The notes beneath the pieces were generated by a model. That model saw only the letters and a list, made by a program, of their open reading frames with translations. It did not search any database and was not told the DNA's origin. Of a stretch of DNA of 64,000 nucleotides, positions 32,167-64,000 are shown in pieces; the first letter of the stretch is position 1; every line of letters begins with the position of its first letter. This DNA comes from Caenorhabditis elegans (Eukaryota > Nematoda > Chromadorea > Rhabditida > Rhabditidae): contig NC_003280.10 of NCBI RefSeq assembly GCF_000002985.6, positions 372,001-436,000 on the forward strand. The letters run 5' to 3'. Made by a program: the position numbers and the translations under genes.

Positions 32167-34226
32167 TTTTTTGAAAATGGACTTACCGGCCGTGTCGTTT
32201 TTCGGTTGAAAATGTTAAAAAAAAAAAATCTTGTTTAACAAACCACGTTTCCTGTTAGCACATCAAAACACATCAAAATATTTGGAATAAATTAGAGCTT
32301 GATGTTCACTACTATCTGCAACTACTGATCTAATATTGGTTGATGGCAGGTTCCTTTGCAGATTTCTCTGATAAATTAGAAAAATTATTTAGAAGAAAAT
32401 TATTTTTAAGAGAAATTTTTGTAGCATGTAGCATTAAAAACATTTTTTGGGCTTTTTGAAACAAACATATTTTTTTCTATTTCTTCAGGTGGAACACTAT
32501 TTTGCTACTCGAATATAACCAATCTAAAATAATTTCCAAACGTATTAATGGTAGAAGCATTAAAAAACACACATTTTTCGAGTTTTTTTTTCAATGAATA
32601 GTGTAGTTACAGAAAAGGTGATACATCTAAGTATCCTAAGTAAGTAAGTAAGTTGCAGTAATTAAAATAATACCCAGAGTAAGTTTGTCAATTTAGTTAT
32701 AAACTTAACATGCTGTTTTTACGGGAAAAAAAATTCCGACTATTGTTTGCATGATGCACACTCCGCCAACGATATTAAGTTTGAGTCAATTGTTGTCAAA
32801 AAGTTTATCTGTGAATGTTTCGTCTTGGTCTGAAAAATGTTATTCAAGTAAATATGACAAACACTCAATTAAAAACTTGCTCACCCGTATGTTCTCACTA
32901 CGTAGTGTTGTCTGATTTCTCTAACCAAATCGAGTAGTACAGAGCACCCTGTGCTATTCCCACGGACAATAATTCTGAAATTTTTGTTAATGCACACCGT
33001 ACGAAAACAATCCGTACGCCGTACGATTATGACGAGGGCCTGTGCATGAAAGTACGACATACTTGATCAAGTTTTTTACAACATTTCGAATGAATATTGA
33101 ATTTTGAAGTTTTTGTGTGTTTTCTCAAACTACAGTAGACTACAGCGACCGTATACCTGAACTATGTATCCACAGCGCTCTTCTTCGCATGAGACTAATG
33201 TTTCTCATAGATTACAAACTACAAGACATACCTAACCAATGCGCAAAAATTTAAAGCCTGCTGAAGTGTTCAAAATTATTGGAGCGACACCTCACGAACT
33301 CCTGAATTTGAGGGAATAGGGAATTCGTTTTTTTTTTTGCATTTTTGGCTTCTATAAAAATGATTTTCAAGTTTTTTTGATTCATAATATTGTTGAGAAG
33401 CATTATACGAATCTAAAATGTGCAAAATATTGAAGTTTGGTTCTAAACTGAAGATTTTCTTTTTTAAAATGTATCAGAACCGTCACCTGGTGTGAGGGTG
33501 TCCCATTTCGGTTTGATCTACAAAAAATGCGGGGATTTTTTCCCGAGAAAAAAAATTGTGACGTCAGTGCCCGAGAAGTGGTACCTGTACGCAATTTGTC
33601 TTCCGTATACCTGACCGTTTGGTAGCGTTTTTCTCAAAAACGGCTGGTGCAACATTTTTGTAATGCATATAAAACATGTTGGAAAATAAATTCAAAATTT
33701 TTTGGACCAAAGCTTTTTTCTTAAAACGCGCCCAAACCTGGCTAAACTCAATATAGACCACAAAATTCAAAGAATGCGTACTGCGCAGCATATTTGACGC
33801 GCAAAATATCTCGTAGCGAAATATACAGTAATTCTTTAAATGACTACTGTAGCGCTTGTGTCGATTTACGGTGATCTCGACTTTTTCGTCATTATTGTGC
33901 TCTATTTCAATATTTTAATTAATTATTTAATAATGATTTGAGTAGCTCGACACCAGTGTAAAGAATTACTGTAGTTTTCGCTACGAGATGTTTTGCGCGT
34001 CAAATATGTTGCGCAGTACGCATTCTCAGAATATTGTGTTCCCGTAATATGGAATGATAGATTACCGACGGATCCCTGTAGACGAACAAAAAACATTGAT
34101 GTTCCATTTTTTGCTGCTAGTACATACGTGTTCAAAATTTAAATGTTAATATTCATATAAAAATAACTTGTATCAAAATCTTAGAAAAATTTTTTTCACA
34201 GGATGTTCAATTAATTCTTCAAAATC
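32167..34226. other. Intergenic between converging genes, repeat-rich
   Basis: No gene recognised. Holds half of a CACGTGGTGTCAG MITE (33484-33570) and a full palindromic element (33771-34026). Confidence 0.55.
33771..34026. mobile_element. Palindromic MITE (AGAATGCGTACTGCGCA arms)
   Basis: Begins AGAATGCGTACTGCGCAGCA and ends GCGCAGTACGCATTCT. Arms contain TTTGACGCGCAAAATATCTCGTAGCGAAA against TTTCGCTACGAGATGTTTTGCGCGTCAAA (read in pieces). Short ACTGTAG motifs lie near the centre. A typical C. elegans palindromic element with no coding capacity. Confidence 0.88.
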
Positions 34227-37200
34227 TCAATTCTTAGTCCATTTCACACAATTCTCAGCAATTGTCACAGTATTCCAGTTGGTGGCAGTTTCCGTCCAAT
34301 CAGACATTCCTTGACTCGTATGTCGATCCATGACTTGCATTGTTACCGGCTTCTCCTCCGTCGAGCACATGTTCGTAGAGCGGATGAACTGGGTCATCTG
34401 AAGGAAAATACAGAAATTAAAAAGCTGCAAACGCGCCCCAATGCAAACTTTTACCATTTTTGCACAATGCGGGAGCACTGGACCATTTTCCAGCTTCAGC
34501 TCGTATTCCGTGCACTTGGTTCCGGCTTTTGCGAATATATTCGATGATTTCTGGAAAAATTGACTTGTAATTTGAATTTCTAATTCAGAAAAATTGGCTA
34601 CCGTCAAGCTGAGCAACTGCCCATACAAAAATGGTGACGTGGCGATTAGAGTGGGCGGGATTTTCGTGTAGGGACCCGTTTTCTCGTGTACAACGTCCGA
34701 ATCCATCAGCGCGTTGAATAGAGCATGAATCTTGGAGCCATGGACTACAAGACACTGGAAACCGGCACGATCAGTCACTTGGGAAGAGAGTTCTCTGGAA
34801 AAATTGGAAATTTGGGCATAGTTTCCGCATCCCCGGTGACAAATGTGCTCTATTGCACCGAATTGTTGGTTGGAATACGGTATTTATTGCATGTTTCAGC
34901 CGAGAATACCGATATTCATACCATCAATTTGGATAGAAGCACATAAGTCACAGAAATTCATTTTTAGAGGCTACGGAAGCTACAGTAATCCTTATGGGAG
35001 TTATACGGCATTTTCAGAGCAATTTTCGGTGTTTTTTTAAACAAAAACTTCAAAATTTTGGAAAAAAACGGTGAAAATTGCTATTTTCTACAATTTTCCC
35101 AGAAAATTGAAAATTTGGGCATAGCTTCCGCATCCCCGGTGACAAATGTGCTCTATTGCACCGAATTGTTGGTTGGAATACGGTATTTATTGCATGTTTC
35201 AGCCGAGAATACCGATATTCATACCATCAAAATTGGATAGAAGCACATAAGTCACAGAAAATTAATTTTCAATGAGGGAAAAATAGGATTACTGTAGCTT
35301 TGCGCAGATCGCGGAGCTACAGTAATCCTAGGAGGAGTCACATTACACAGTTCGGGTTACTGTAGCGCCGGGCTATTGCCACGCAGCTACAGTAACCTTT
35401 TGTATGTACAGTAACCTATTGACTTTTTTAATGGAAAAAATCTTGAAAATCAAAATTTCGACGTTTTTCGGAAAATTTTAATTTTAAAATAGTAGTAGAT
35501 TTGAACTTTTTAGCGTAAAATTTGCAATTTTAAGGCAAAAAATCAAATTCCACAAAATATTTCAAATTTTAAAGTACAAAAATTTGGGGCTACTGTAGTT
35601 TTGAGCGCAGCTACAGTAACCTTTCGTGAAAAAACGGGGTTTGCACGAAAAAACTGTCAAAAACTATGATTTTTTGGGTTTTTTTTCCAGAAAGTTCAAT
35701 AAAAAAGCTTTTTTGCCTGGATAATGGCAAATTTTTACCTCGAAACAGTATTTTTCACTGTTCGCGGTGAGACCCCAATCTCATTCAACCATTGGTTCGC
35801 CAGCTTCATTGGACTCTCGTTCTCATCACTGTCTTGATCTTTTTTCAGCGGGCTTTCATCGGAATTTTCCGAATTTTCGATTCCACCGAATGTTGTTGGT
35901 CCCATTTGAGAGTTCTCCTTGGATTCTGAAGCCAAAAGGCAATCCAGTGTTGACTGATCATGATGGAGTTGTGGTGAACTGCTGACACGCTTCAGAGACG
36001 ATGTGGGCTTTGGAGCCTCGAAGTCGACGCCTGCAAAAATTGAAATTTCAGTTTAAAAATGAATATTTAATAGAGTTTCAGCTTTTTTGCCTATTTCAGC
36101 TTTTAAATCGACAAAAAAAACAGTTTTTGAGCTGAAATTCGCAATGGAGCACGTTTGCCGCACACTATAATTTGAAAAAAAAGTTTTTTTCCTCAAAAAT
36201 ATCATTTTACAGTAGGATTTTAAGTGAAAAAGTGCGTAATTTCGTATAAAATCCTGCAAAATCGGAATTTTCGAGGAAAATTGAGCCAATTTTGAAATTT
36301 TTGAGTGAATTAACCAAAAAATCTAAATTTTAAGCTAAAAAGGCATTTTTTAATTTGGGTCTGCTAAATCAAAAGTTGTAGTTTGTAGTCTAGCAGACCC
36401 AACATTTTCCATTTTCGCAATGAAAAAAAAGGAAACTTGATGAATTTTTCAATTTTTCAGCGGGAAAATGAAAATGTTTCGAATAGAAATTAGAAAAATT
36501 CATGTTTTTTGCGATTTTTAGTGGAAAAAAAAATGCAATTTTTGTATTTTAAGGCAAAAGTGCGTATTTTCAGATAAAATCCTGAAAAAAATCGGAATTT
36601 CTGGGGGAAAATTGATCTAATTTCGAATTTTTGAGTGAATTAAAATTGTATTCCAAAAAAACGAATCAAAAAATCTAAATTTTAAACTGAAAACAGGCAT
36701 TTTTAATTTGGGTCTGCTAAATCAAAAGTTGTAGTTTGTAGTTTAGCAGACCCAAAATTTACTATTTTTGCAATGAAAATTGATGAATTTTTCAATTTTT
36801 CAGCGGGAAAATGAACATTTTTTGAATAGAAATAAGAAAAATTCAAGTTTTTGCGATTTTAAGCTGAAAAATTTGCACTTTTTGTGCTTTAAGACCTTGT
36901 ACGGCTTGAAAAAAGTATTTTTTACCCACAATTTTCAATTTTATAGCATAAAATCAATCTGAAAATTGCTCAAAAATTCTACCCTGGCTTCTCAAATGCT
37001 CTCGGATCGCCGACGTCGTATGAGTGATCACAGCGACAAGCTTCTGCCCTCGAAAAGCCTGCGAGCAAGATTGTGACGTGTCATCTGCCGCCACATCATC
37101 ACCACCACCCGACAACGGCATTTTCGTAAAAAGCACGTTGCAAACAGCAGTCGCCACGTAAAAACTGCCACGTTGTCCCTTTTTATACGAGCTGTAGAGC

Positions 37201-38919
37201 TCCGCGTAGCACTCTTGCCATTGTTCCAACATTGTGCTCGTCACCAGTGGAGCCAGCGAGACACGGGACACGTTTCTGCAAAAAAATTCGAATTTTAGGT
37301 GTTGCAAGTGTGCTCCACCGTACTCTTGCTCTGCGGTGATTCTTGGATACATTTTGAGCCCTGGAATTACTGGAAACTGGTAGAAAAGCGAGGCAGCTTC
37401 AAGAATTGACATTGGAGACACTGGGAGAGGCACTGTCGGGTCCTGAAATTTGAATTTTTTGAAAAAAAAAGGGTCTGCTAGGCTACAAACTACAAATTTG
37501 TCAGAAAAATATCATTGAAAATGGTTTTTTCTTTCAATTTTGAAGTAAAAAATTATTAAAAACTTGATTTCAACTGAAAAATACTATGAAAACTGCTGAA
37601 AAAGCCACAAAAATATATTTTGAAGACTACAAACTACAAATTTTGATTTAGCAGACCTAAATGATTTTTTTTTTCGTTTTTCGACGATTTTTACACAATT
37701 TTATGGATTTTAGCTCAAAATTTGCGATTTCAGATAAATTTTCCCTGAAAATTCCGATTTTTTCAGGATTTTGTATGAAAATACGCACTTTTGTCTTAAA
37801 ACACAAAAATTGCAAAATTTTCCACTAAAAATCGCAAAACACTTGAATTTTTCTGATTTCTATTTGAAAAATGTTCATTTTCCCGCTGAAAAATTGAAAA
37901 ATTCATCAATTTTCCAATTTTCCATGCGAAAATTGAAAATTTTTGGTCTGCTAGACTACAAACTACACATTTTGATTTAGCAGACCAAAGTGGTTTTGAA
38001 GAGATTGGGTCTGCTAGACTACAAACTACAAATTTCGATTTAGCAGACCCAAGCCAACATTTGCTTGAAAAAACCGTTTTTCTCCAAAATTTTTGCTGCG
38101 AAGGCCATTTTTCTACACAGAAAAGTCAAAAATAGTAGATTTCGACCCACCTCATAGCCATTAAGAAACGTTTTATTAAAATATTGCATTCCATCGAATC
38201 GATCGTTCGTCTGAAACTTGACAATCACATTTCCCGTCGATTTTCTCGTATTCATCCATGGAAACGAGACTTTTGACACGATTCTCATCTTGCTTCCGAT
38301 CCGAAGATCAGTTGGAAGATCCTCGGCAGACTCCTGGGCTGGTTCTGCTGGTTTTTGAGCCGATGACGACGTGGCAAGGAGCGCGGAGAAGTCGACCGGA
38401 TGGAATTCTTGAAGAAGAGCCTGCAGAATTCAATTTTTGTTTAAAAAAAACCTCGAGAATTTTATATTTTCTCACTGGATCAAAGCTCTGGAATCTCTCA
38501 AACTTCTGTGGACTTTTTCTTTTCCGCGGGGAGCTTCTCACTCCTTTGGTGGGCGTTTTAAGTGGATCGGGGCTTCTGAAACTTAAAATTATTAGAGAAG
38601 ATTGCTCAAATTTCCAATTCAAACCTCGAAATACTCGCTGCAAACGGATCGTCTTGTGAGAAGGTCACCTGGGGTTTTTGTCGCTTCTTTTGCGGGGAAG
38701 AGACCTGAAAATCGACTTTTTAAAATAAAAATAAGTTCATTTCTCTACTTTAAACGGATTATTCGCTGTCGGAGCCGGACAACTATCCGTAAATCCCTCC
38801 AAGCCTTCAAAATCGGTAGGTGGCGGTGGAGGCACAGCGTTGAGAATGTTTCGGCAGCTTGATCGACGTTTTATTTGCGTTTTGAGCCGATTTCGAGGAT
38901 TATAGTGCTCGTCGGACAT
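34227..38919 (-). CDS. dnsn-1: DONSON ortholog, DNA replication initiation factor
   Basis: Ten exons on the - strand: 38749-38919, 38625-38704, 38476-38575, 38151-38420, 37324-37442, 36983-37275, 35739-36030, 34602-34794, 34455-34550, 34227-34397. The phases close to 594 residues. The N-terminal 170 residues are basic and Pro/Ser-rich. The folded part has PFMWMN-like VSFPWMNTRKS and the WQECYAELYSSYKKGQRGSFYV block, matching the DONSON W..a..SLY..L....C.yFYv motif. Later come LANQWLNEIG, KTGPYTKIPPTLIATSPFLYGQLLSL and KLENGPVLPHCAKM, which are DONSON C-terminal signatures. DONSON helps load GINS onto MCM/CDC-45 to build the CMG helicase and acts in the nucleus. Intron 5 (37276-37323) is only 48 nt and stays open in frame. 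Intron 7 (34795-35738) carries a tandem duplication. The symbol is recalled from the C. elegans literature (C24H12.5). Confidence 0.92.
34801..35245. repeat. Tandem duplication of ~145 bp in a dnsn-1 intron
   Basis: Copies at about 34801-34950 and 35100-35248 are about 96% alike, from AAAATTGGAAATTTGGGCATAG to GATAGAAGCACATAAGTCAC. Each copy has an open + strand frame including NVLYCTELLVGIRYLLHV. Two more diverged copies lie at about 59470-59580 and 62810-62920. Confidence 0.85.
36357..38050. repeat. 44-bp palindromes GGGTCTGCTA...TAGCAGACCC, dnsn-1 cluster
   Basis: Full copies at 36357-36400, 36710-36753, 37945-37986 and 38007-38050, and partial ones at 37471-37500 and 37624-37657. The core is GGGTCTGCTAAATC, then GTAGTTTGTAGTC, then TAGCAGACCC. 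The copies are in both orientations and lie in introns of dnsn-1. About 310 bp of related sequence links pairs of them. Confidence 0.92.
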
Positions 38920-39231
38920 TTTAATAGGCTGAAAATTACAGATTTAATGAGGAAAATACGTAAAAATCACTGAAAATGTCTGAAAATTAAAAAATTTATT
39001 AAATTCTTAGCTTCTCGCGCTTTTTCAATAGAGCGCGAATGCTTGCGCGCAAAGGGAGACTGCTGGCGCATTTCTTGATCGTTGGCGCGTTTTTGGCTCC
39101 ATTTTTGCGAAAAAATATAATTTTATTGTTTTTTCTTGTAATTCTAAAGTTTTTGATTGATTTTCGATGTTTCTTTTTGAAATTTTATAGCGAAAAATCG
39201 ATATTTCACTCTTTTTTCCAGGTAATTCATC
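38920..39231. promoter_or_regulatory. Compact bidirectional promoter, dnsn-1 / DDX56-like
   Basis: Only 312 bases lie between the divergent start codons. The middle contains CTCGCGC, GAGCGCGAATGCTTGCGCGC and GGCGCG, CG-rich words within AT-rich DNA (about 39015-39090). A TTTTTTCCAG acceptor-like site sits at 39213-39222 just before the helicase ATG, consistent with SL trans-splicing. Shared control of two proliferation-linked genes is inferred. Confidence 0.6.
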
Positions 39232-42200
39232 ATGGCACCCGACGAAGTCACCAAAAAGAAGCGAAAATCGGTGAAATTCGCCGAAGAAGAGCCACCAAAA
39301 GTGAAAGAAGCACCTAAAAAACAGAAAGCCGGCAAGAAAATCGAGGTTTCCGTGGAGTTGCGCGACAAAAATGAGGAGAAAATGGGCAGAAAGAGAAAAC
39401 ACCGAATGAAGAAGAGTCAGGCAGAGTAAGTCGATATTTTGGGTTGCAGAAAAAGAAAAAAATGTGTTATAATAATTTTTCAGAAAACGCCAGAAGCTTA
39501 TGGAAAGCCTAGTTGGTCCTCAAGTCGATGAGATGGATTTCGAGCCGGAGCACAAGACATTCGCGGATTTTGGTCTGGATGAGCGTATTCTGAAGGTTTT
39601 TTTTTGCAAATTTAGACTTAAAATATTAGAATTTTCTTGCAGAGCATCGGAGAACTCGGCTGGGAAAAGGCAAATCAAGTCCAAGAGTCTGTGATCTCTC
39701 TGGCACTGGAAAACAAGAATATTATGGGAAGAGCTCGTACTGGATCCGGAAAAACCGGCGCTTTTCTGATTCCTCTTGTGCAGAAGCTGATCGCCGAATC
39801 CAAGACGAATGATGGATCAGTTGGACCATCTGCTGTGATCATTGCACCCACAAAAGAGCTCATCACACAGATTTATAAGCTTTTCGTGAAGCTTTCGCAG
39901 GCCTTGCCGTTTTTGCAGGTAAAATATGCGGATTTTAGTGGAAAAAATCTAAAATTTTGGTATTTTCAGGCTATCAATCTGTGTGATATCAATGAAGAGG
40001 AGAACTCGGTTTGGCTGGAGGACAGAAGCCACGTGGTTGTCACAACACCCGGAAAATTGCTCAGAATGTGCTCTTTGAGACCAGAATATTGCACATTGGT
40101 CAGCTATTTGGTGATGGACGAGGCGGATTTGTTGCTCTCCTTTGGTTATGAGGAGGAAATGATGTTAGTAGACGGATTTTGAGCTGGAAAATCGAAAAAT
40201 TGACATGATTTAGCACTAGGACCTGGAAATTTGGGTCAAAATCGTATTTATTCTTTAAAAAAAATCAAAAAGTATTCAAATTTTCACTTGCTCCCAGTGA
40301 GAAATAGGAAATATTCGATGGCAAAACCACTTTGGTTTTTTTAAATATTGGTCTGCTAAATGAAAATGTGTAGTTTGTAGTCTAGCAGACCCAAAATTTT
40401 TAATTTTCGCATTGAAAATTGGAAAATTGATGAATTTTTTAAATTTTTCAGCGGGAAAATGAACATTTTTCAAATAGAAATTAGAAAAATTCAAGTGTTT
40501 TGCGATTTTTAGTGGAAAATTGGCCAAAAGTGCGTATTTTCATATAAAATCCTGAAAAAATCGGGACTTTCGGGGAAAATTGATTTAAATTTAAATTTTT
40601 GAGTGAATTAGCATTGTATTCCAAAAAAAAACGAATCAAAAATCGAAATTTTAAGCTGAAAACAGGAATTTTTTAATATTGGTCTGCTAAATCGAAAATT
40701 GTAGTTTGTAGTCTCCAAAATCAATTTTTGCGGCCTTTTTTAGCAGTTTTTATAGTATTTTTCAGTAAAAATCAGGTTTTTAATACATTTTGTGAGTTAA
40801 AATTTTAAAAAAGAATCCAAAATGAATAAGAAAAACGCCCTTTTCGTGAAAAATCTTCGTTTTCCCTCAAATTTGAGTTTAAAAGCTGAAATTTCAGTCA
40901 GTTCTCGTGAGAAATAAAGATTTTTAGCTGAAAAAAATGATTATTTTATTTAAAATTTCCAATTTTCCCCGAAAAAAACTCTAAATTTTAAGTTGAAATC
41001 AGGCATTTTTTATTTTGGGTCTGCTAAATCGAAATTTGTAGTTTGTAGTCTCCAAAATCAATTTTTGTGGCTTTTTTTAGCAGTTTCCATAGTATTTTTC
41101 CAGTTGAAATCAGGTTCCAAATTTTCTTTTTTAATTTTTTTTTTTTAAAAATCCAAATTTTCCTAAAAAAAATGGTTTTTCCTCAAATTTTGCGTTATAA
41201 AGAGATTTTTAGCTGAAAAATAATCATTTTTCCCGAAAAAAACCTCTAAAATTTCAGCAAAATCCGTTCAAAACTCCCTCCAACCTACCAATGCCTAATG
41301 ACATCCGCCACACTGAAAGACGACATGACAACACTCAAAAAGCTATTCATGACAGGACCAGTCATCACGATTAAGCTCACAGAAGGAGATCTACCGAATT
41401 CTGATCAACTGACCCAGTATCAGTTGACTTGTGGCTCCGATGAAGAGAGATTCGCGATTCTTGTGGCAATGTTCAAGCTGAAACTGATCGTCGGAAGATC
41501 CATTCTTTTTGTGAATACTATCGATAGATGCTACAAGCTTATGCTAATTTTGAGAGTTTTTGGACTCAAAAGTTGCATTTTAAATAGTGCAATGCCTGCC
41601 AATTCACGTTGCCACGTCATTAATCAGTTTAATGAGGTAAAAATTGCGAAAAAGCTGGAAAAAATGAAAATTTAGCCGAAAAAATCAATTTTTTACATGA
41701 AAAATCGTATTTTAGGCTCGAAAAATGCTGTAAATTCGAAAAAAAATTGTTTTGTAATTTTTTCAATGTTTTATATAGAAAAATAGGGAAAAATCAACAT
41801 AATTTTCCACTAAAAAATTGAAAAATAAATTTTCTGCTATAAATTAGTTAATTTTCATCCAAAACCTCTGAAAAATTTAGATTTTCCGCCTAAAATTCAA
41901 TTTTTACACGAAAATTGAAAAATTTGGCCGAAAAATTGTATTTTAGGCTCGAAAAATGATGTAAAGTCGAAAAAAAAAAATTGAAAAATTGCTTTATATA
42001 GAAAAGCCAACATAATTTTTCCCTCAAAAATTGAATAACAAAATTTCTGCTCTAAATTAGTTAATTTTTATCAAAAACTTCCAAAAAAGTAGATTTTCCG
42101 CCTAAAAATCAATTTTTAAACGGACAAATTAAGATTTAGGCAAAAAATTGTGTTTTAGGCTCGAAAAATGCCGCAAATTCGAAAAAAAAAATCAATTTTT

Positions 42201-44529
42201 AAACGGAAAAATCAAAATTTCAGTGGCTTTTAGCCAAAAACCACTTTAAAATGTCAATTTTAGCTCTAAAAACTTGATTTTCCGTTAAATTCCTTGTCAA
42301 TTCCAATTTTTCCAGGGTTCCTATCAAATTGTGATCGCCAGTGATGTTTCGGATGCGGATGGCTCGAAATTAAAGGAGGAAATCGCCGGAAAATCCGACG
42401 AAAAACCGGAAAAAGACGAGAAAAAGGGAAAAAAAGCGTCGAAATTGGATAAAGAAAGCGGAGTTTCGAGGGGAATCGATTTTCATCACGTTTCGAATGT
42501 TGTTAATTTCGATTTTCCCGAAACTACAGATGCTTATATTCATCGTGTTGGAAGGTTCGAAATTGATGCGCGAAATTCGAGAAAATTGGACGATTTTGGG
42601 CTGAAATTGACTGAAAATCGAATAAAATGCATAATTTTTAAGCTGAAACACAAAAAAACCAAGAAAAACTCAAAATTTGAGCGAAAATCGATGAAATTGG
42701 CTGAAAATAGTAGAAAAACGAAAAAAATCACTTGGGTCTGCTAAATCAAAATATGTAGTTTGTAGTCTAGCAGACCCAAAATTTTCAATTTTCGCTGTGA
42801 AAATTGAAAAATTGATAAATTTTTTTAATTATTCAGCGGGAAAATTAACATTTTTCAAATAGAAATTAGAAAAATTCAACTGTTTCTGCGATTTTTGTGT
42901 TTAAAGACAAAAGTACGTATTTTCATATGAAATCCTGAAAAAATGAGCTGAAATTGGCTGATAATCGAAGAAAAAACTGAAATGTTAAGCTGAAACACGA
43001 AAAAAACCAAGAAAATCGCAAATTTTGATATAAAATCTATAAAATTGGATGGAAATCGTCGAAAAACAAATAAATAACTTTGGTCTGCTAAATAGAATTT
43101 GTAGTTTGTAGTCTAGCAGACCCAAATTTCTAGAAATTCGTTGGGTCTGCTATATTTAATATTGTAGTTTGTAGTCTAGCTGGCCAAATCTTATCAAAAA
43201 TATTGGTCTGCTAAATCGAAATTTGTAGTTTGTAGTCTAGCAGACCACGTTTTTGAATTTCTCGATTTTCAACTCAAAAACCTTCAATTTTTTCCAAATT
43301 TTATATTTTTTTCACTAAAAAGTTCATAATTTCCTCTTTTTTTCAGAACCGCCCGTGGTTTCAACAAAGGAACCGCCCTTTCCTTCTGTATTCCATCGGA
43401 ACGTGCACATTTGGAGCAAATTCAGGAGGAAATTAATCAGCAAATGGGTCGAAAAGTGCTTCAACCATACGAATTCCGTATTAAAGAGCTCGACACTTTC
43501 CTCCTGAGAACCCGTGAAGCTTTGAGTAAATGCACAAAAGGAGTTATCAAGAAGGCTCGGCTGAAGGAGATTCGTCAGGAGGTACAATTTCAGAGAAAAT
43601 TTAGGGAAAATTAGAGTTTTAGACGAGAAATTTGGAGAAAATCGGATAATTTTCGACTAAAATCTGAAAAATCATGAAAAAAATATTTTTTTTGACGATT
43701 CTGAGCCTGTAGGCATGAGGTAGGCTTATAACCAGGCATGAGGTAGGCCTGTAGGCAGGCATGTAGTCAGGCATGAGGTAGGCCTCAGGGCTGTCGGCAT
43801 GTAGTCAGGTCAGTAGGCAGGCATGAACAAGGACTGTAGGTAGGCATGTGGGCAGGCATGAGGTAGGTCTGTAGGTAGGCATGTAGTCAGGCATTAGGTA
43901 GGCATGAGGTAGACCTAGCGCCAGGCATGAACAAAGCCTGTAGGCAGGCCTAAGGTATGCCTGCTGGAAGGCATGAGGTAGGCATATAACCAGGCATGAA
44001 CTAGGACTGTAGTCAGGCATGAGGTAGGCTTGAAGGCAGGCATGAGGTAGGCTTGTAGGCAGGCATGAGGTAGGCCTGTAGTCAGGCATGAAGAATGCCT
44101 GTAGTCAGACATGAAGTCAGGCATGAGGTAGGCCTGCATCCAGGCATGAAGTAGGTCTGCCTTGCCTACCTTATGCCTACAAAAGTTTAAACAGTAGGTG
44201 AAATTCGTAAAAGCAACCGCCGAAACTCCCAAATTCAACCTATTTTTTTACAGCTCATGCGCTCGGCCAACCTCCAAACGTTTTTCGCGAAAAACGAACG
44301 TGAGAAGCTTCTGATGCAGACGGATTGTCACCCTGTCATGCTGAAAATCAACTCTCCCGCAATCGCCGATGTCACATCCTACATGGTACCAGAAGCCCTT
44401 CGTGGAATGGATTTCTCGGCTCCCGGAGCCAAAAATCGCCGCTACAATATGGGACAGAAGCATCGGCAGAAGCTGAAACACAAATTCCAGAAAAAGGGAA
44501 AGGATCCGTTGAAGACTTTTAAGATTTGA
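39232..44529 (+). CDS. DDX56-type DEAD-box RNA helicase (Dbp9 family)
   Basis: Eight exons: 39232-39425, 39484-39595, 39643-39918, 39970-40163, 41258-41636, 42316-42554, 43347-43581 and 44254-44529, giving 634 residues. After a lysine-rich head come the helicase motifs in order. The Q-motif region [19 protein letters not shown] precedes motif I ARTGSGKT (133-140). Next are PTKELITQ (Ia), TPGKLL (Ib), DEAD (244-247), SAT (275-277), SILFVNT (IV), [18 protein letters not shown] (V) and HRVGRTARG (VI, about 461-469). A charged insert of about 40 residues ([23 protein letters not shown]...) splits motif V's region, as in the DDX56/Dbp9 family. The C-terminus is basic ([17 protein letters not shown]). 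It should act in nucleolar 60S subunit assembly. By memory this is C24H12.4. Introns 4-6 carry the 44-bp palindromes and intron 7 a minisatellite. Confidence 0.95.
40350..43246. repeat. 44-bp palindromes, helicase-intron cluster
   Basis: Full copies at 40350-40392, 42734-42777, 43082-43123, 43143-43184 and 43205-43246. Halves lie at 40681-40716 and 41017-41052, where the TAGCAGACC arm is replaced by TCCAAAATCA. The three at 43082-43246 are packed within 165 bp. All lie in introns of the helicase gene. Confidence 0.92.
43700..44180. repeat. GGCATGAGGTAGGCCTGTAGGCA minisatellite in helicase intron 7
   Basis: About 20 imperfect units of AGGCATGAGGTAGGC with CTGTAGKCAGGC linkers. The - strand open frames rich in Cys/Leu/Pro are repeat artefacts. 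Confidence 0.92.
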
Positions 44530-57152: not shown

Positions 57153-57293
57153 TTTCAGAATTGGTGAGATCGATAAGTCTTCTGACAAACAGTATGGGCC
57201 GCAGCAGAAAGACACCTTATGAGATCAAGAAAAAGAGTGCACAATACCCCCCAGCCTATTGGAAATTGCAGACAGCGTGCTCAGCTACTTAAA
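57153..57293. promoter_or_regulatory. Head-to-head promoter between F-box copies
   Basis: The 141 bases between the F5 start (-) and the first + strand copy start. CGCAGCAGAAAGACACCTTATG (57192 on) through TCAGCTACTT is duplicated at 57787-57880 upstream of F6. Confidence 0.55.
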
Positions 57294-57785
57294 ATGCTCC
57301 TCGACTATCTCTTGCTTTTAATAATCACCGCCCTTTTAATATGTGCAGTTATAAAAATAAAATTGAATGTGAGTTATTTCCTTATTATGTACAGGAAAAT
57401 TCCAAAAAAAATTTTAACAGAAAAAACCATTCCAACTGAAAAAACTGCAGCATGTTGCATTCAGAAATGTAATAAATTCCATGGATATTAATAAAGTGTA
57501 AGTTTTTATCGTTTATGGTTGGTTGGAGCCTCCATTTTGTGGCCGGGGCCTAATAAACTAGAAAATCAATGTCTTGCAGATTTGATTCTAATATTTCGCT
57601 GTGAAATTCAAATTTTTAGGCAACAAAAATCTACCGTATTTCCACTGTTAGTCTTGTACCCCTAAGGACTAATAGAGGAAATACGGTAATTATCAAATAT
57701 TTCTTAAACAAATCAACAATTTTTAAAAAGTTTCCAGAATCGATTTGGCCAGTACATCAACTCGTTTCCGACAAAGACTGAGGCA
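57294..57785 (+). pseudogene. Truncated F-box copy (first two exons) upstream of F6
   Basis: Exon 1 57294-57368 (MLLDYLLLLIITALLICAVI), exon 2 57421-57496 (KKPFQLKKLQHVAFRNVINSMD), and the first few codons of exon 3 (57738 on, IDLASTSTRFRQRLRQA). The sequence then switches at about 57785 to a second copy of the upstream region. This is the 5' unit of a tandem duplication whose junction lies in exon 3. Confidence 0.82.
57632..57688. repeat. 57-bp hairpin with TACCGTATTTCC ends (copy 1)
   Basis: TACCGTATTTCCACTGTTAG pairs with CTAATAGAGGAAATACGGTA. It lies in the intron after exon 2 of the truncated copy, with the matching element at 58385-58441 in F6. Confidence 0.78.
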
Positions 57786-57879
57786 AGCGCAGCAGAAAGA
57801 CACCTTATGAGATCAAGAAAAAGGGTGCACAATACCCCCCAGCCTATTGGAAATTGCAGACAGCGTGCTCAGCTACTTA

Positions 57880-57892: not shown

Positions 57893-58384
57893 CTCATAGC
57901 AAGAATCTTATTGGGTCTCCCCATCTGTCCGTGACGTCACTAACCCTTGCTCTGTTTCTTTTATTGTGTTACCTTGCCGATCAATATTCTTTAATGTACG
58001 AGCCATTTTCAAAATGCTCCTCCACTATCTGTTGCTTTTAATAATCACCATCGTTTTAATATGTGTGGTTATAAAAATTCAATTAAATGCGAGTTGATCT
58101 CTTATTATGTACAGGAAAATTTCAATGATTTTGTTACAGAAAAAACCATTCCAACTGAGAAAACTGCCGTATATTGCATTCAGAAATGTAATAAATTCAA
58201 TGGATATTAATAAAGTGTAAGTTTTTATCGTTTATGGTTGGTTGGAGCCTCCATTTTATGAGCCTTATAAACCAGAAATTAAAATTTTCCAACTTTCAGA
58301 AGTTTGTTGGCGCAAAGTTCGAATTTGATTTGTTTCTAATATTTTGCGGTGAAATTTAAATTTTTATGGTTAGGCAAAACTATC

Positions 58385-58441: not shown

Positions 58442-59155
58442 ATTAATCCAATTTTTTTGAACAGTGAAACAAATCAAAAAATTTTAAAATATTTCCAGAA
58501 TTGATTTATCCATGAAATCTACTCGTTTCCGACGGAGTTTGAAACAAGTAAATCGAAAAATTTTCAACCTGATCATTGAACGCTATAAAAAGTATTCTTC
58601 CAAATTGGGAGAAGATTCCTGGTATCGAAGAATAATTGTGATGGAAACAGAGAGAGATATGCAATTTGTGTATCACTTTATGATGAATAAGGCACGAATA
58701 GAAGGATACGGCTTGGCAACTCATGATGGCGTCAATGATCATATAGGCTTCTTTTGGTTAGTTTTTTCTAGAGTGTTCGAGCACAAGCCATGAAAAACTA
58801 ATTAGATCTTGAGGACACACTCACAAGTGAATTTTTTCCGATTTTTTTGCTATGATTTGAAGTTTGAGCAGAATTAAAGACTCTTTTTTTTAGCACAGAA
58901 TATAAGGAAGTGAACAAGTCGCCATGTATGTCTTATGGAACTTCACAAGAGTTAATCAAACTTTTGGATACCTTAAACGGATCTTTTTTAATCGATCATG
59001 TTGAATTGACAATAGACCGTCATGAAATCTTCGGGGAATTTAAATCCGCGTTGAGCCATCCTTTATTTTGAAAATGCCATTTTGTTAAACTTCTTGGAGA
59101 CGATTCGTATATTTCAACAGAGGATATGGAGTTCATATTAAAGAATTTTGATTTC

Positions 59156-59697
59156 GCAAAAGCCGGAACCCAGTGCACCGAATACGTGCTGAAGCTGGAA
59201 GGAGGACCGGTGCTCCCGCATTGTGCAGAAATAGTAAAAAAAATTTGCATTAGAGCGAGCTTTCAGCATGAATTTTTGTGAAAATCATTATTTTTTACAC
59301 TTTAAAATGTTATTTTATTCACTTAAGCACAAGTTTAACAAGCATACAGGGAATTCAATATCCCTGTAGTTCCAGAAGCTACAGTATCCAGAAACAACTC
59401 TAATCTCAATTTCCGTTCAAAATCCCGGAAAAAAATCCCCGATTATATATTGTTTTAACCAATATGTAATCTGCGAGCTTCTATCCAAATTGATGGCTGG
59501 AATATCGGTATTCTCGGCTGAAACATGCACTAAATACCGCATTCCAACCAACAATTTGGTGCAATAGAGCACATTTGTCATCGGAAATGAAAAAAAGAAA
59601 AAGGAAGCTAAGCACAAATTTTCCCCAGAAAAACCAAAATTTACTTCCGATGACTCAGTTCATCCGCTCTACGAACTTGTGCTCGACAGAGGAGATG
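59156..59697 (+). pseudogene. dnsn-1 exon 8-9 fragment inside F6
   Basis: Reads AKAGTQCTEYVLKLEGGPVLPHCA, the counterpart of dnsn-1 AKAGTKCTEYELKLENGPVLPHCA, then a derived intron containing the NVLYCTELL-type repeat (antisense, 59470-59580). The start of dnsn-1 exon 9 follows (CAGTTCATCCGCTCTACGAA). It is flanked by a 155-bp direct repeat of F-box exon 4 (59001-59155 and 59698-59852). Confidence 0.88.
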
Positions 59698-60197
59698 TTG
59701 AATTGACAATAGACCGTCATGAAATCTTCGGGGAATTTAAATCCGCGTTGAGCCATCCTTTATTTTGAAAATGCCATTTTGTTAAACTTCTTGGAGACGA
59801 TTCGTATATTTCAACAGAGGATATGGAGTTCATATTAAAGAATTTTGATTTGAAATATGGATTTTCAAATAGTTGTTTACACCGAGCCGGTTTCAACAAA
59901 AAACTGGTAATTCGGAAGTGTACCACATATTTTAGTACATAATGTGGTCGTTTAAAAAAAACGGGAAAATTCCAAGAAGGGGTTTTGTGTAAAAATCGGT
60001 ACCAAAAACCGAAAAAATGAATTATGTCCTTTTGGTAGAGTTGATCTCTGAACAGTTTTATATATACTTTTTGCGTAAATGAGTAGTTTTACCGGATTTT
60101 TTCAAGATATTCATAAAGTATGTGTTTGATGAAAAATTTTGCACTTGCTTGCTTCCTAGTTTTTTTCCTGAAATTTCCCTGTTTTCTTTGCTAGAAG

Positions 60198-60375
60198 CAC
60201 GTGGTGTCGGAATGTCCCATCTCGGTTTGATCTCCGAAAAGTGCGGAAATTTAGACGCAGACTTTTAAACTGATTTCGCATTGTTAAGAGTGTGCTGACA
60301 TCACACGTTTCTGTGGAAAAAAACTCCCGCGTTTTTTGTAGATCAAGCTGCGATGGGATAGCCTGACACCACGTG
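60198..60375. mobile_element. Palindromic MITE, CACGTGGTGTCAG family (left arm)
   Basis: Bounded by CACGTGGTGTCGG and CTGACACCACGTG, in the F6 intron. Duplicated as part of the inverted repeat at 62014-62191. Confidence 0.88.
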
Positions 60376-60972
60376 TAGAAGTTTTAGTTTAAGTACCTAT
60401 TCTATGCGTATCAGAATTTTCTCACATCCACTATTATTTTTTTAGTGGGTCAACATTCCACGATTGGATTTCCAAAAATGTTTTCCGAACTCAACATTAA
60501 CATTAGACGAATTGAAAAAGATGAATTACGAAAAGATTCGATTCGATTATCTTGGTGGATTCTCGGGAATGCAACTAAACGAGTACATCCGATACTGGTT
60601 AGACGGGAATATGTCAAAACTACGAAGATTTCAAATAAATTTCTGGAATGATCAGTGGGCTTATGACTTATGGAATCGTTTACCGCACTCTTCCGAGTGG
60701 AATCCAAAACGCCGATCAAGATATTTCTAGTGAGTTTGATCTGACAAGAGAAGTATTAAAACCTGATTAAATGTACCTCAAAAATTTTGAAAAAATGTAT
60801 TTTAATCGAACCCAGTTAGTGGCTGAAAAAAATTTGGGCAAAAATAAAAAGTTGTCTAAATTTGTTGAAAACGGGTGATTCATATATGCCGATTTTCATA
60901 TGGCATGACAGATTCCCAACGGATCAACAAACATTTTTCGACTTTTCGGAATATAAATCACTATTTTCTTGA

Positions 60973-61492
60973 TTCTTTCTGTTAACTTGTTGAAACCTGT
61001 GAGCTAACACGAGCATGTTTTCAGCCATCTATTGTACATACACATGTGCTCTTTTAGAGCAAAAAAATATTTTCTGAATTTGGTCAATACTAATGAAATT
61101 TGTAAATTTTGAGACCTCCCGCAACAATATTGCTCATTTTAAAGAAAGTTCTTAATTTTTAATTTTTACTATAAATGACCCATTTTTGGCATTTTTACTA
61201 ATTTTTGAATTGTTATCAACAAATTTAGACAACTTTTTATTTTTGCCCAAATTTTTTTCAGCCACTAACGACTGACCTTTTTTTTTGGCAAAAAATATTA
61301 ATTTTCCTGAAAATGTTCGAAACCATTTTATACTAGAAAAGGACAGTTTTTTAGAGTTCGGAGATCAATTTTGAGTCCTCTAGCTACAAAATTAACAATT
61401 TTAGAAGAGTTTCAAAATTTTCAATTTTTGCCAGAAATTGTCCATTTTTGCCACTTTCTACTGGTTTTTGATGGGTTAAACCTAGATTTTCT
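60973..61492. other. Spacer of the inverted duplication
   Basis: AT-rich sequence downstream of the F6 last exon. A partial extra copy of the inner arm sequence (TTTAGACAACTTTTTATTTTTGCCC...CAGCCACTAA) lies at about 61222-61270. No gene recognised. Confidence 0.6.
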
Positions 61493-63234
61493 AAAATCGG
61501 CATATATGAATCACCCGTTTTCAACAAATTTAGACAACTTTTTATTTTTGCCCAAATTTTTTTCAGCCACTAACTGGGCTCGATTAAAATACATTTTTTC
61601 AAAATTTTTGAGGTACATTTAATCAGGTTTTAATACTTCTCTTGTCAGATCAAACTCACTAGAAATATCTTGATCGGCGTTTTGGATTCCACTCGGAAGA
61701 GTGCGGTAAACGATTCCATAAGTCATAAGCCCACTGATCATTCCAGAAATTTATTTGAAATCTTCGTAGTTTTGACATATTCCCGTCTAACCAGTATCGG
61801 ATGTACTCGTTTAGTTGCATTCCCGAGAATCCACCAAGATAATCGAATCGAATCTTTTCGTAATTCATCTTTTTCAATTCGTCTAATGTTAATGTTGAGT
61901 TCGGAAAACATTTTTGGAAATCCAATCGTGGAATGTTGACCCACTAAAAAAATAATAGTGGATGTGAGAAAATTCTGATACGCATAGAATAGGTACTTAA
62001 ACTAAAACTTCTACACGTGGTGTCAGGCTGTCCCATCGCAGCTTGATCTACAAAAAACGCGGGAGTTTTTTTCCACAGAAACGTGTGATGTCAGCACACT
62101 CTTAACAATGCGAAATCAGTTTAAAAGTCTGCGTCTAAATTTCCGCACTTTTCGGAGATCAAACCGAGATGGGACATTCCGACACCACGTGCTTCTAGCA
62201 AAGAAAACAGGGAAATTTCAGGAAAAAAAACTAGGAAGCAAGCAAGTGCAAAATTTTTCATCAAACACATACTTTATGAATATCTTGAAAAAATCCGGTA
62301 AAACTACTCATTTACGCAAAAAGTATATATAAAACTGTTCAGAGATCAACTCTACCAAAAGGACATAATTCATTTTTTCGGTTTTTGGTACCGATTTTTA
62401 CACAAAACCCCTTCTTGGAATTTTCCCGTTTTTTTTAAACGACCACATTATGTACTAAAATATGTGGTACACTTCCGAATTACCAGTTTTTTGTTGAAAC
62501 CGGCTCGGTGTAAACAACTATTTGAAAATCCATATTTCAAATCAAAATTCTTTAATATGAACTCCATATCCTCTGTTGAAATATACGAATCGTCTCCAAG
62601 AAGTTTAACAAAATGGCATTTTCAAAATAAAGGATGGCTCAACGCGGATTTAAATTCCCCGAAGATTTCATGACGGTCTATTGTCAATTCAACATCTCCT
62701 CTGTCGAGCACAAGTTCGTAGAGCGGATGAACTGAGTCATCGGAAGTAAATTTTGGTTTTTCTGGGGAAAATTTGTGCTTAGCTTCCTTTTTCTTTTTTT
62801 CATTTCCGATGACAAATGTGCTCTATTGCACCGAATTGTTGGATGGAATGCGGTATTTAGTGCATGTTTCAGCCGAGAATACCGATATTCCAGCCATCAA
62901 TTTGGATAGAAGCTCGCAGATTACATATTGGTTAAAACAATATATAATCGGGGATTTTTTTCCGGGATTTTGAACGGAAATTGAGATTAGAGTTGTTTCT
63001 GGATACTGTAGCTTCTGGAACTACAGGGATATTGAATTCCCTGTATGCTTGTTAAACTTGTGCTTAAGTGAATAAAATAACATTTTAAAGTGTAAAAATA
63101 ATGATTTTCACAAAAATTCATGCTGAAAGCTCGCTCTAATGCAAATTTTTTTTACCATTTCTGCACAATGCGGGAGCACCGGTCCTCCTTCCAGCTTCAG
63201 CACGTATTCGGTGCACTGGGTTCCGGCTTTTGCG
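61493..63234 (-). repeat. Right arm of the inverted duplication (F-box exons, antisense)
   Basis: Reverse-complement copy of 59155-60896. Holds an identical FBA exon at 61661-61937 (-), the MITE at 62014-62191, and an F-box exon 4 part at about 62490-62691 that joins dnsn-1 exon 9 sequence at about 62692-62697. Confidence 0.93.
62014..62191. mobile_element. Palindromic MITE, CACGTGGTGTCAG family (right arm)
   Basis: Mirror of 60198-60375. Confidence 0.88.
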
Positions 63235-63415
63235 AAAATGTTCGATGATTTCTGGAAAAATTGACTTATATTTGAATTTCTAATACGAAAATATTCGCTA
63301 CCGTCAAGCTGAGCAATTGTCCGTACAAAAATGGTGACGTGGCAATCAGAGTGGGCGGGATTTTCGTGTAGGGACCTGTTTTCTCATGCACAAAATCCGA
63401 AAACATTAAAGCTTT
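62697..63415 (-). pseudogene. dnsn-1 exon 7-9 fragment joined to F-box sequence
   Basis: On the - strand: part of exon 7 (VHEKTGPYTKIPPTLIATS, FLYGQLLSL; about 63299-63398), the intron 8 equivalent, exon 8 (about 63160-63255, SSNIFAKAGTQCTEY) and the first codons of exon 9 (DSVHPLYELVLDRG frame). It extends about 180 bases beyond the inverted-repeat boundary at 63234, so this is likely the older of the two dnsn-1 fragments. Compared with dnsn-1, intron 8 is enlarged by the NVLYCTELL repeat. Confidence 0.88.
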
Positions 63416-63448
63416 GTATAGCAGCAGCTGGTTAAGATCTTGAGCAGC

Positions 63449-63535
63449 AAGGTGCACAATACAGGTGACACTAATTGAAAATCAATATATGGTGTCTGTT
63501 TGTAGTGTGTATCAGACACGAACATTGTGCACCTT
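63449..63535. mobile_element. 87-bp element with AAGGTGCACAAT inverted ends
   Basis: AAGGTGCACAAT at 63449-63460 and ATTGTGCACCTT at 63524-63535 form perfect 12-bp inverted repeats. The interior is unremarkable. Confidence 0.65.
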
Positions 63536-63790
63536 CCTCGCAAAAATGAAAAGGGAAGCAACGCATTTTTGCATAACCCATATGGCATGGGAAAAGGGGT
63601 AAGGAAGAATGTGCAAAACGATGCAATGACTAAGCAGGTTCAGGTCGCTTGAAGGCTCAGAGGGCGGAGGGTCTCCCGTAAAGGACACCTTAAAATATTT
63701 ACAACATACCAGTTTCAGTTAGTTAACAGAACGAATCACGAAAATAGTTCTTTATATAAAAAATTGCAAGAAGCATATAAATATGTATTA

Positions 63791-63870
63791 ATTTTCCGAG
63801 AAGTGGAACAATGTTTGTTGATCCATCGGGAATCTATCATGCCATATGAGAAAGTACATGGTTCTGGATT
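63791..63870 (-). pseudogene. Last-exon fragment of another F-box/FBA_2 copy
   Basis: Reads MYFLIWHDRFPMDQQTLFHFSEN on the - strand, matching the family's last exon (WHDRFPTDPR...FSD). The preceding DCSKGRD block is not visible here. It may be a fragment or part of a copy continuing beyond the window. Confidence 0.7.
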
Positions 63871-64000
63871 TGATTAAGATAGTTCGATTAAAATAGAAAT
63901 TCCAGAAAAATAATTGTTTTGACCAAAAAAAACATGGCTGAAAAATAGGAAAACCAAAAATAATTTTTAACATATTAAAAAAAAGGGAGTAATGCATATA

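Follow-up and report, generated by a model that had tools for sequence, protein, structure and literature searches.

An F-box gene of Caenorhabditis elegans (F) carries in its exon 4 an insertion of 697 bp, made up of a 540-bp segment resembling dnsn-1 (D) and an exact 157-bp duplicate of the exon (X2), and on balance we favour the view that template switching produced a complex inverted duplication, of which the insertion forms one end. The stretch of DNA analysed, hereafter the window, comprises 64,000 nucleotides (C2:372001-436000), and the whole-genome searches covered 100,286,401 bases in 7 contigs. Two further loci recur below: G, an F-box paralog of F, and P, a dnsn-1-derived copy situated right of the window. 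Positions are those of the window unless preceded by a contig name.

Table 1. Coordinates of the features at the rearranged F-box locus and of the related loci
Feature	Position	Strand	Remark
dnsn-1 gene	about 34-38 kb	-	exons match 8OUW_F
dnsn-1 3' part, ancestor of P	34089..36050 (ends approximate)	-
X1, native part of F exon 4	58998..59154	+	in-frame TGA at 59069-59071
J1, exon-4/dnsn-1 join	59152..59154	+	TTT common with right arm, only TT with P
D, dnsn-1-derived	59155..59694	+	end of one exon, intron, start of last exon
Dispersed repeat in intron of D	59477-59589		113 bp
J2, D/X2 join	59694/59695
X2	59695..59851	+	exact repeat of X1
T, remainder of F exon 4, intron and last exon	59852..60815	+	adjoins X1 directly in paralogs
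Satellite piece (dispersed)	60816..60895	-	inserted in F 3' region
Left palindrome arm	59152..60896	+
Spacer	60897..61492	.	native F 3' flank first, satellite at end
Satellite stretch	61212..61573	+	inverted relative to 60816-60895; putative J3 fold-back in its last 82 bp
J3, spacer/right-arm border	61492/61493
Right palindrome arm (T', X', D')	61493..63237	-
X3	62539..62695	-	third exact exon-4 copy
D', dnsn-1-derived part within right arm	62696..63237	-
R, dnsn-1-derived	63238..63421	-	runs on past right arm, without mirror on left
Inverted copy of G-downstream DNA (C2:443632-444095)	63421..63884	-	452/464 identical
Satellite copies near the locus	60816-60895; 61212-61573; 63935-64219
P, inverted partial copy of dnsn-1 3' half	C2:436783-438862		just right of window

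The insertion in exon 4

The dnsn-1 exons at ~34.4-34.8 kb matched residues 443-538 of PDB chain 8OUW_F, 'Downstream Neighbor of SoN homolog' (E 5.9e-58). Membership in the F-box cluster was tested with G and not with F itself: the joined exons of G matched Pfam PF07735 (FBA_2) at E 4.7e-9. For upstream exon pieces of F, Pfam yielded nothing at E ≤ 0.05, leaving the F-box motif itself unconfirmed.

The initial annotation of this DNA had described an exon-4 frame passing ungapped into dnsn-1-like sequence, and the description was borne out: ILKNFDF is directly followed by AKAGTQCTEYVLKLEGGPVLPHCA at 59154/59155, with the resemblance to dnsn-1 recovered between 59153-59279 and 34410-34535 (81%, E 5e-25). 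The frame is open across this join, about 50 codons past the in-frame TGA. The direct repeat also reported there does flank the insert exactly; its length had been given as 155 bp and is 157 bp (X1 and X2, 100% identical). When the 157-bp repeat was used as the query, the whole genome contained 11 matching places: three agreed at 100%, G reached 96% and the remaining seven 77-86%. Five paralogs, out of the eight places other than the X copies, were aligned across the join, and with the flanks of the insert joined in silico the exon ran ungapped at 59154/59852 in all five. Since the exon is uninterrupted in the paralogs, the insertion comprises both D and X2. Its content is chimeric, combining an F-box exon with a dnsn-1-derived exon.

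The exon-4/dnsn-1 junctions are confirmed in the sequence and belong to one end of a larger structure. It was this end only that the initial annotation had caught; the third exon copy X3, the palindrome arms, the closer relative outside the window at C2:437884-438601 and the TGA at 59069-59071 had escaped it.

The palindrome and its satellite

The insert lies in the left one of two inverted arms, which are identical in 1739 of 1746 alignment columns, are separated by a spacer of 596 bp and share an identical D/X join. Similarity to G is found on both sides of the border between left arm and spacer (60400-60795, 358/397; 60893-60977, 66/85), and T on the left is therefore in its native place. 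The DNA right of F is an inverted mosaic of P-like DNA and of DNA from downstream of G.

Assembly is known to have trouble with inverted repeats that are nearly identical, and a mis-joined arm in the reference would be conceivable on that account. We nevertheless consider such an artefact decidedly unlikely, as the arms differ by 5 substitutions in 1740 positions plus gaps, P has differences of its own, and the right arm continues as dnsn-like sequence to 63421 and then into the inverted G-downstream copy, both of which the left arm lacks. On sequence grounds, the differences between the arms together with those of the third copy speak against a single segment pasted twice, without the junction being proven thereby.

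The satellite match is unbroken over the right-arm border at 61492/61493, and its inverted partner at 60816-60895 ends the left arm (among the best 39 of 1288 candidates); the arm border at 61493 thus falls within the satellite stretch, that is, inside an inverted repeat. This satellite has many copies on several contigs, with an array at C4:221207-225307 and a period of about 305 bp among the matches listed. Both copies at the arms appear to be older than the rearrangement, and their layout is what would be left by a fold-back through inverted copies.

Descent of the dnsn-1-like segment

P lies about 30 kb from dnsn-1 and is inverted, partial and decayed, matching dnsn-1 in three blocks (92%, 85% and 82%). 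The 3' part of dnsn-1 is ancestral to P and therefore also to D. The dnsn-like stretch at 62695-63421 agrees with P at 708 of 727 positions, and the closer relative mentioned above is at C2:437884-438601. P carries a stop codon where the right arm and dnsn-1 encode serine, the change being private to P.

These comparisons bear on the donor, which the initial annotation had taken to be dnsn-1. Left D differs by 3 substitutions in 539 positions from right D and by 5 in 531 from P, both of them nearer to the insert, while P is separated from dnsn-1 by 53 in 403. With the right arm and P far closer, direct donation from dnsn-1 was rejected on the grounds of identity.

Further, the whole arms differ less from each other than the mosaic does from its sources. 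Right D plus R shows 11 substitutions in 718 positions against P, and the G-downstream copy 12 in 458 against its source; the arms, with 5 in 1740, are separable from the former (p = 0.0012) and from the two pooled (p = 7e-6), a contrast in age that presupposes equal rates and no arm-to-arm conversion and owes its strength to the sequence outside D together with the F-box part of the arms. If only D is considered, the arm difference of 3/539 gives no significant separation from a P distance of 5/531 (p = 0.50) or 6/531 (p = 0.34).

At the level of single sites, 13 alignment columns of D are common to the arms against P, mostly gaps, with base changes at 59301, 59347, 59648 and 59676. At 59648 P agrees with dnsn-1 and both arms differ, which groups D with D'; at 59676 P alone differs. 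The left arm agrees with P against the right at 59547 and 59557, and the right arm with P against the left at 59233. When P and dnsn-1 served as outgroups, changes private to one arm turned up on both sides: at 59233 and in one gap on the left, and at 59547 and 59557 on the right. The two arms probably go back to a common source that is younger than P, a reading that depends on few sites. The mutation rate is about 2.7e-9 per site per generation, and the arm divergence of 0.29% would correspond to roughly half a million generations, an age that would be too young if the arms had converted each other.

State of the gene and of the fusion

The TGA upstream of the fusion is present in all three exon-4 copies, and its residue is arginine in the five other paralogs aligned there (two of the ten matches stop short of the site). 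Because all exon-4 copies have the TGA in common, the nonsense change predates the copying of the exon or was spread by conversion; F would accordingly have been broken before the fusion formed, unless conversion carried the TGA to all copies. No open frame runs from the gene start through the fusion, as the TGA interrupts it. Furthermore, in the left copy the dnsn-1 exon no longer has its final G in front of the splice donor and ends in A (ATAGTAAAA), where the right arm, P and dnsn-1 have G as the last exon base (ATGGTAAAA), and the splice donor is thereby weakened. A live fusion gene was rejected on account of the TGA common to the exon-4 copies; judged from the upstream stop and the altered splice-donor base, a working fusion protein is unlikely.

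The notion of an exon-shuffling event in progress, put forward in the initial annotation, has to be given up on these grounds. A dnsn-1 exon copied directly into a working F-box exon, with shuffling under way, would agree with the frame that stays open past the join, about 50 codons after the TGA; it is hardly credible when the insert stands much nearer to P and to the right arm than to dnsn-1, the TGA stands upstream in 3/3 exon-4 copies and the splice donor is weakened. We read the structure as a scar of faulty DNA copying, left in a gene that was no longer intact, and not as the birth of a new gene; no function is needed to account for it.

Proposed formation and its alternatives

In the sequence of steps that we favour, synthesis would leave exon 4 at 59154 and, with TTT as the overlap (J1), continue near 63237 on the mosaic's opposite strand. 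D would then be copied, with a return into exon 4 at 58998 over the 1-bp join J2, followed by copying of X and T and on through the 3' flank of F. A fold-back via the inverted satellite copies at 61493-61574 and 60895-60816 (J3) may have followed, after which T'-X'-D' would be copied backwards and the mosaic rejoined by homology inside D', continuing into R. That the switches made up one event, and their order, we infer from this arrangement. Besides J1, J2 and J3, the locus holds two joins of greater age, one at 63421 and the other at about 63884, and the donors P, F and G are still present.

Template switching, as suggested by the initial annotation, remains the best mechanism and is supported; it is not proven, and dnsn-1 is not the nearest donor. 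The joins overlap by 3 bp in the case of J1 and by 1 bp each in the cases of J2 and the older 63421 join, and the region-wide chance of such overlaps at random joins is 0.073 for at least 3 bp and 0.467 for at least 1 bp. Since they are within chance, they give no proof of switching driven by microhomology, and microhomology was set aside as proof of the mechanism.

The same overlaps of 1-3 bp would suit end joining of broken pieces, and the 113-bp dispersed repeat inside D and the satellite at J3 could be taken to point to end joining or to transposon-mediated capture in place of replication-type copying. Both are very improbable: the donor segments are all in place, so that material was copied and not moved, and mirrored arms with a single common D/X join require copying. 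As for capture, terminal inverted repeats and a short target duplication were looked for by eye at the D edges in the left arm, the right arm and P, and neither was seen; the earlier statement that no transposon ends bound the insert agrees with this inspection, and transposon capture was rejected on it, by eye only.

The main rival concerns the order of events. In a first step, an inverted F copy (T'-X') would have become attached to the right-hand mosaic; later, repair of a break at 59154 would have used the right arm as template for D-X and ended by re-annealing in T, with conversion from arm to arm keeping the two alike. One non-homologous entry, over the TTT common with the right arm, and one homologous exit would suffice, and the D part of the arms (3/539) shows no age difference from their F-box part (2/1201; p = 0.18). 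Against this, X' offered the broken X end 157 bp of identical sequence, yet the join sits at the D/R border, and we hold two separate events to be possible, if rather unlikely.

Comparison with known rearrangements

Returning to the single inverted duplication made by template switching, the locus is a well-preserved case of an already known kind of rearrangement. In C. elegans, a spontaneous rearrangement at rcan-1 is described from long reads as five tandem inversion/duplications (PMC7058356). According to that account it is likewise local, with several junctions, inverted and duplicated gene pieces and truncated copies, and a palindromic sequence is noted at its site; unlike here, it was caught de novo and changed a working gene, whereas the present locus involves pseudogene pieces and an event old enough for substitutions to have accumulated. 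A review covering the work of Katju and Lynch (PMC3449122) reports that partial and chimeric gene duplicates abound in C. elegans. Like the chimeric ones described in that review, the present structure draws on more than one genic source and adjoins its sources; it differs from the duplicates described there in that the exon taking part in the join was defective beforehand, and in its palindromic layout, which holds three copies of the exon.

Inverted triplications whose junctions fall within inverted repeats have been described as DUP-TRP/INV-DUP structures (PMC4352052), and small ones have been reported too (PMC13334657). Inverted copies and a junction within inverted repeats, as outlined in PMC4352052, are shared by our locus, where D, D' and P stand in direct-inverted-direct order. 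Unlike in such triplications, T has two copies and not three; as to the ages of D, D' and P, the site at 59648 groups D with D', and the D-only distances do not separate them. Pack-TIR capture, as presented in PMC8277862, offers a further parallel in gene pieces, template switching and short common sequence, from which the present case differs in that inspection of the surroundings of D showed no terminal repeats of a transposon. Moreover, several junctions and pieces copied from nearby templates that stay in place are features in common with FoSTeS/MMBIR rearrangements.

Implications and neighbouring repeats

Mosaic formation among clustered gene families of a worm chromosome arm can be read at this locus where, in the formation that we favour, an old pseudogene copy acts as donor, a satellite as fold-back point and a broken exon as landing place. 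About 40 kb span all the sources, copies and junctions, so that the order of the steps could be worked out from wild isolates. It should be added as a caution that an open-frame exon fusion can mimic the birth of a gene if the upstream stop is missed.

Recent duplicates and pseudogenes are among the reported targets of ERI-6/7-dependent siRNAs (PMC3213143). Were the spacer transcribed, the 1.7-kb arms would form one long hairpin, and the dsRNA could silence P as well as the relatives of F, although we regard this as doubtful; if true, the scar would act as a small-RNA silencing locus for recent duplicates. Silencing of dnsn-1 in trans is less likely still, because the longest exact match between the left dnsn-derived segment and the dnsn-1 locus, the dispersed repeat excluded, is 21 bases.

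Several other repeats were recorded in the window. The dispersed repeat of ~113 bp found in D (59477-59589) also occurs in the dnsn-1 intron (34828-34940 and 35109-35244); it takes 42 of the 47 genome matches and, among the best 40 of 119 candidates, is located on contigs C2, C4 and C6. Many related repeats, direct and inverted, occupy dnsn-1 introns and nearby DNA at 36177-43341. Upstream of F, a 92-bp direct repeat (57200-57291 and 57788-57879, 99% identical) is accompanied by longer direct repeats (57412-57541 and 58131-58260, 94%), and these direct repeats at the 5' end of F represent another local duplication.
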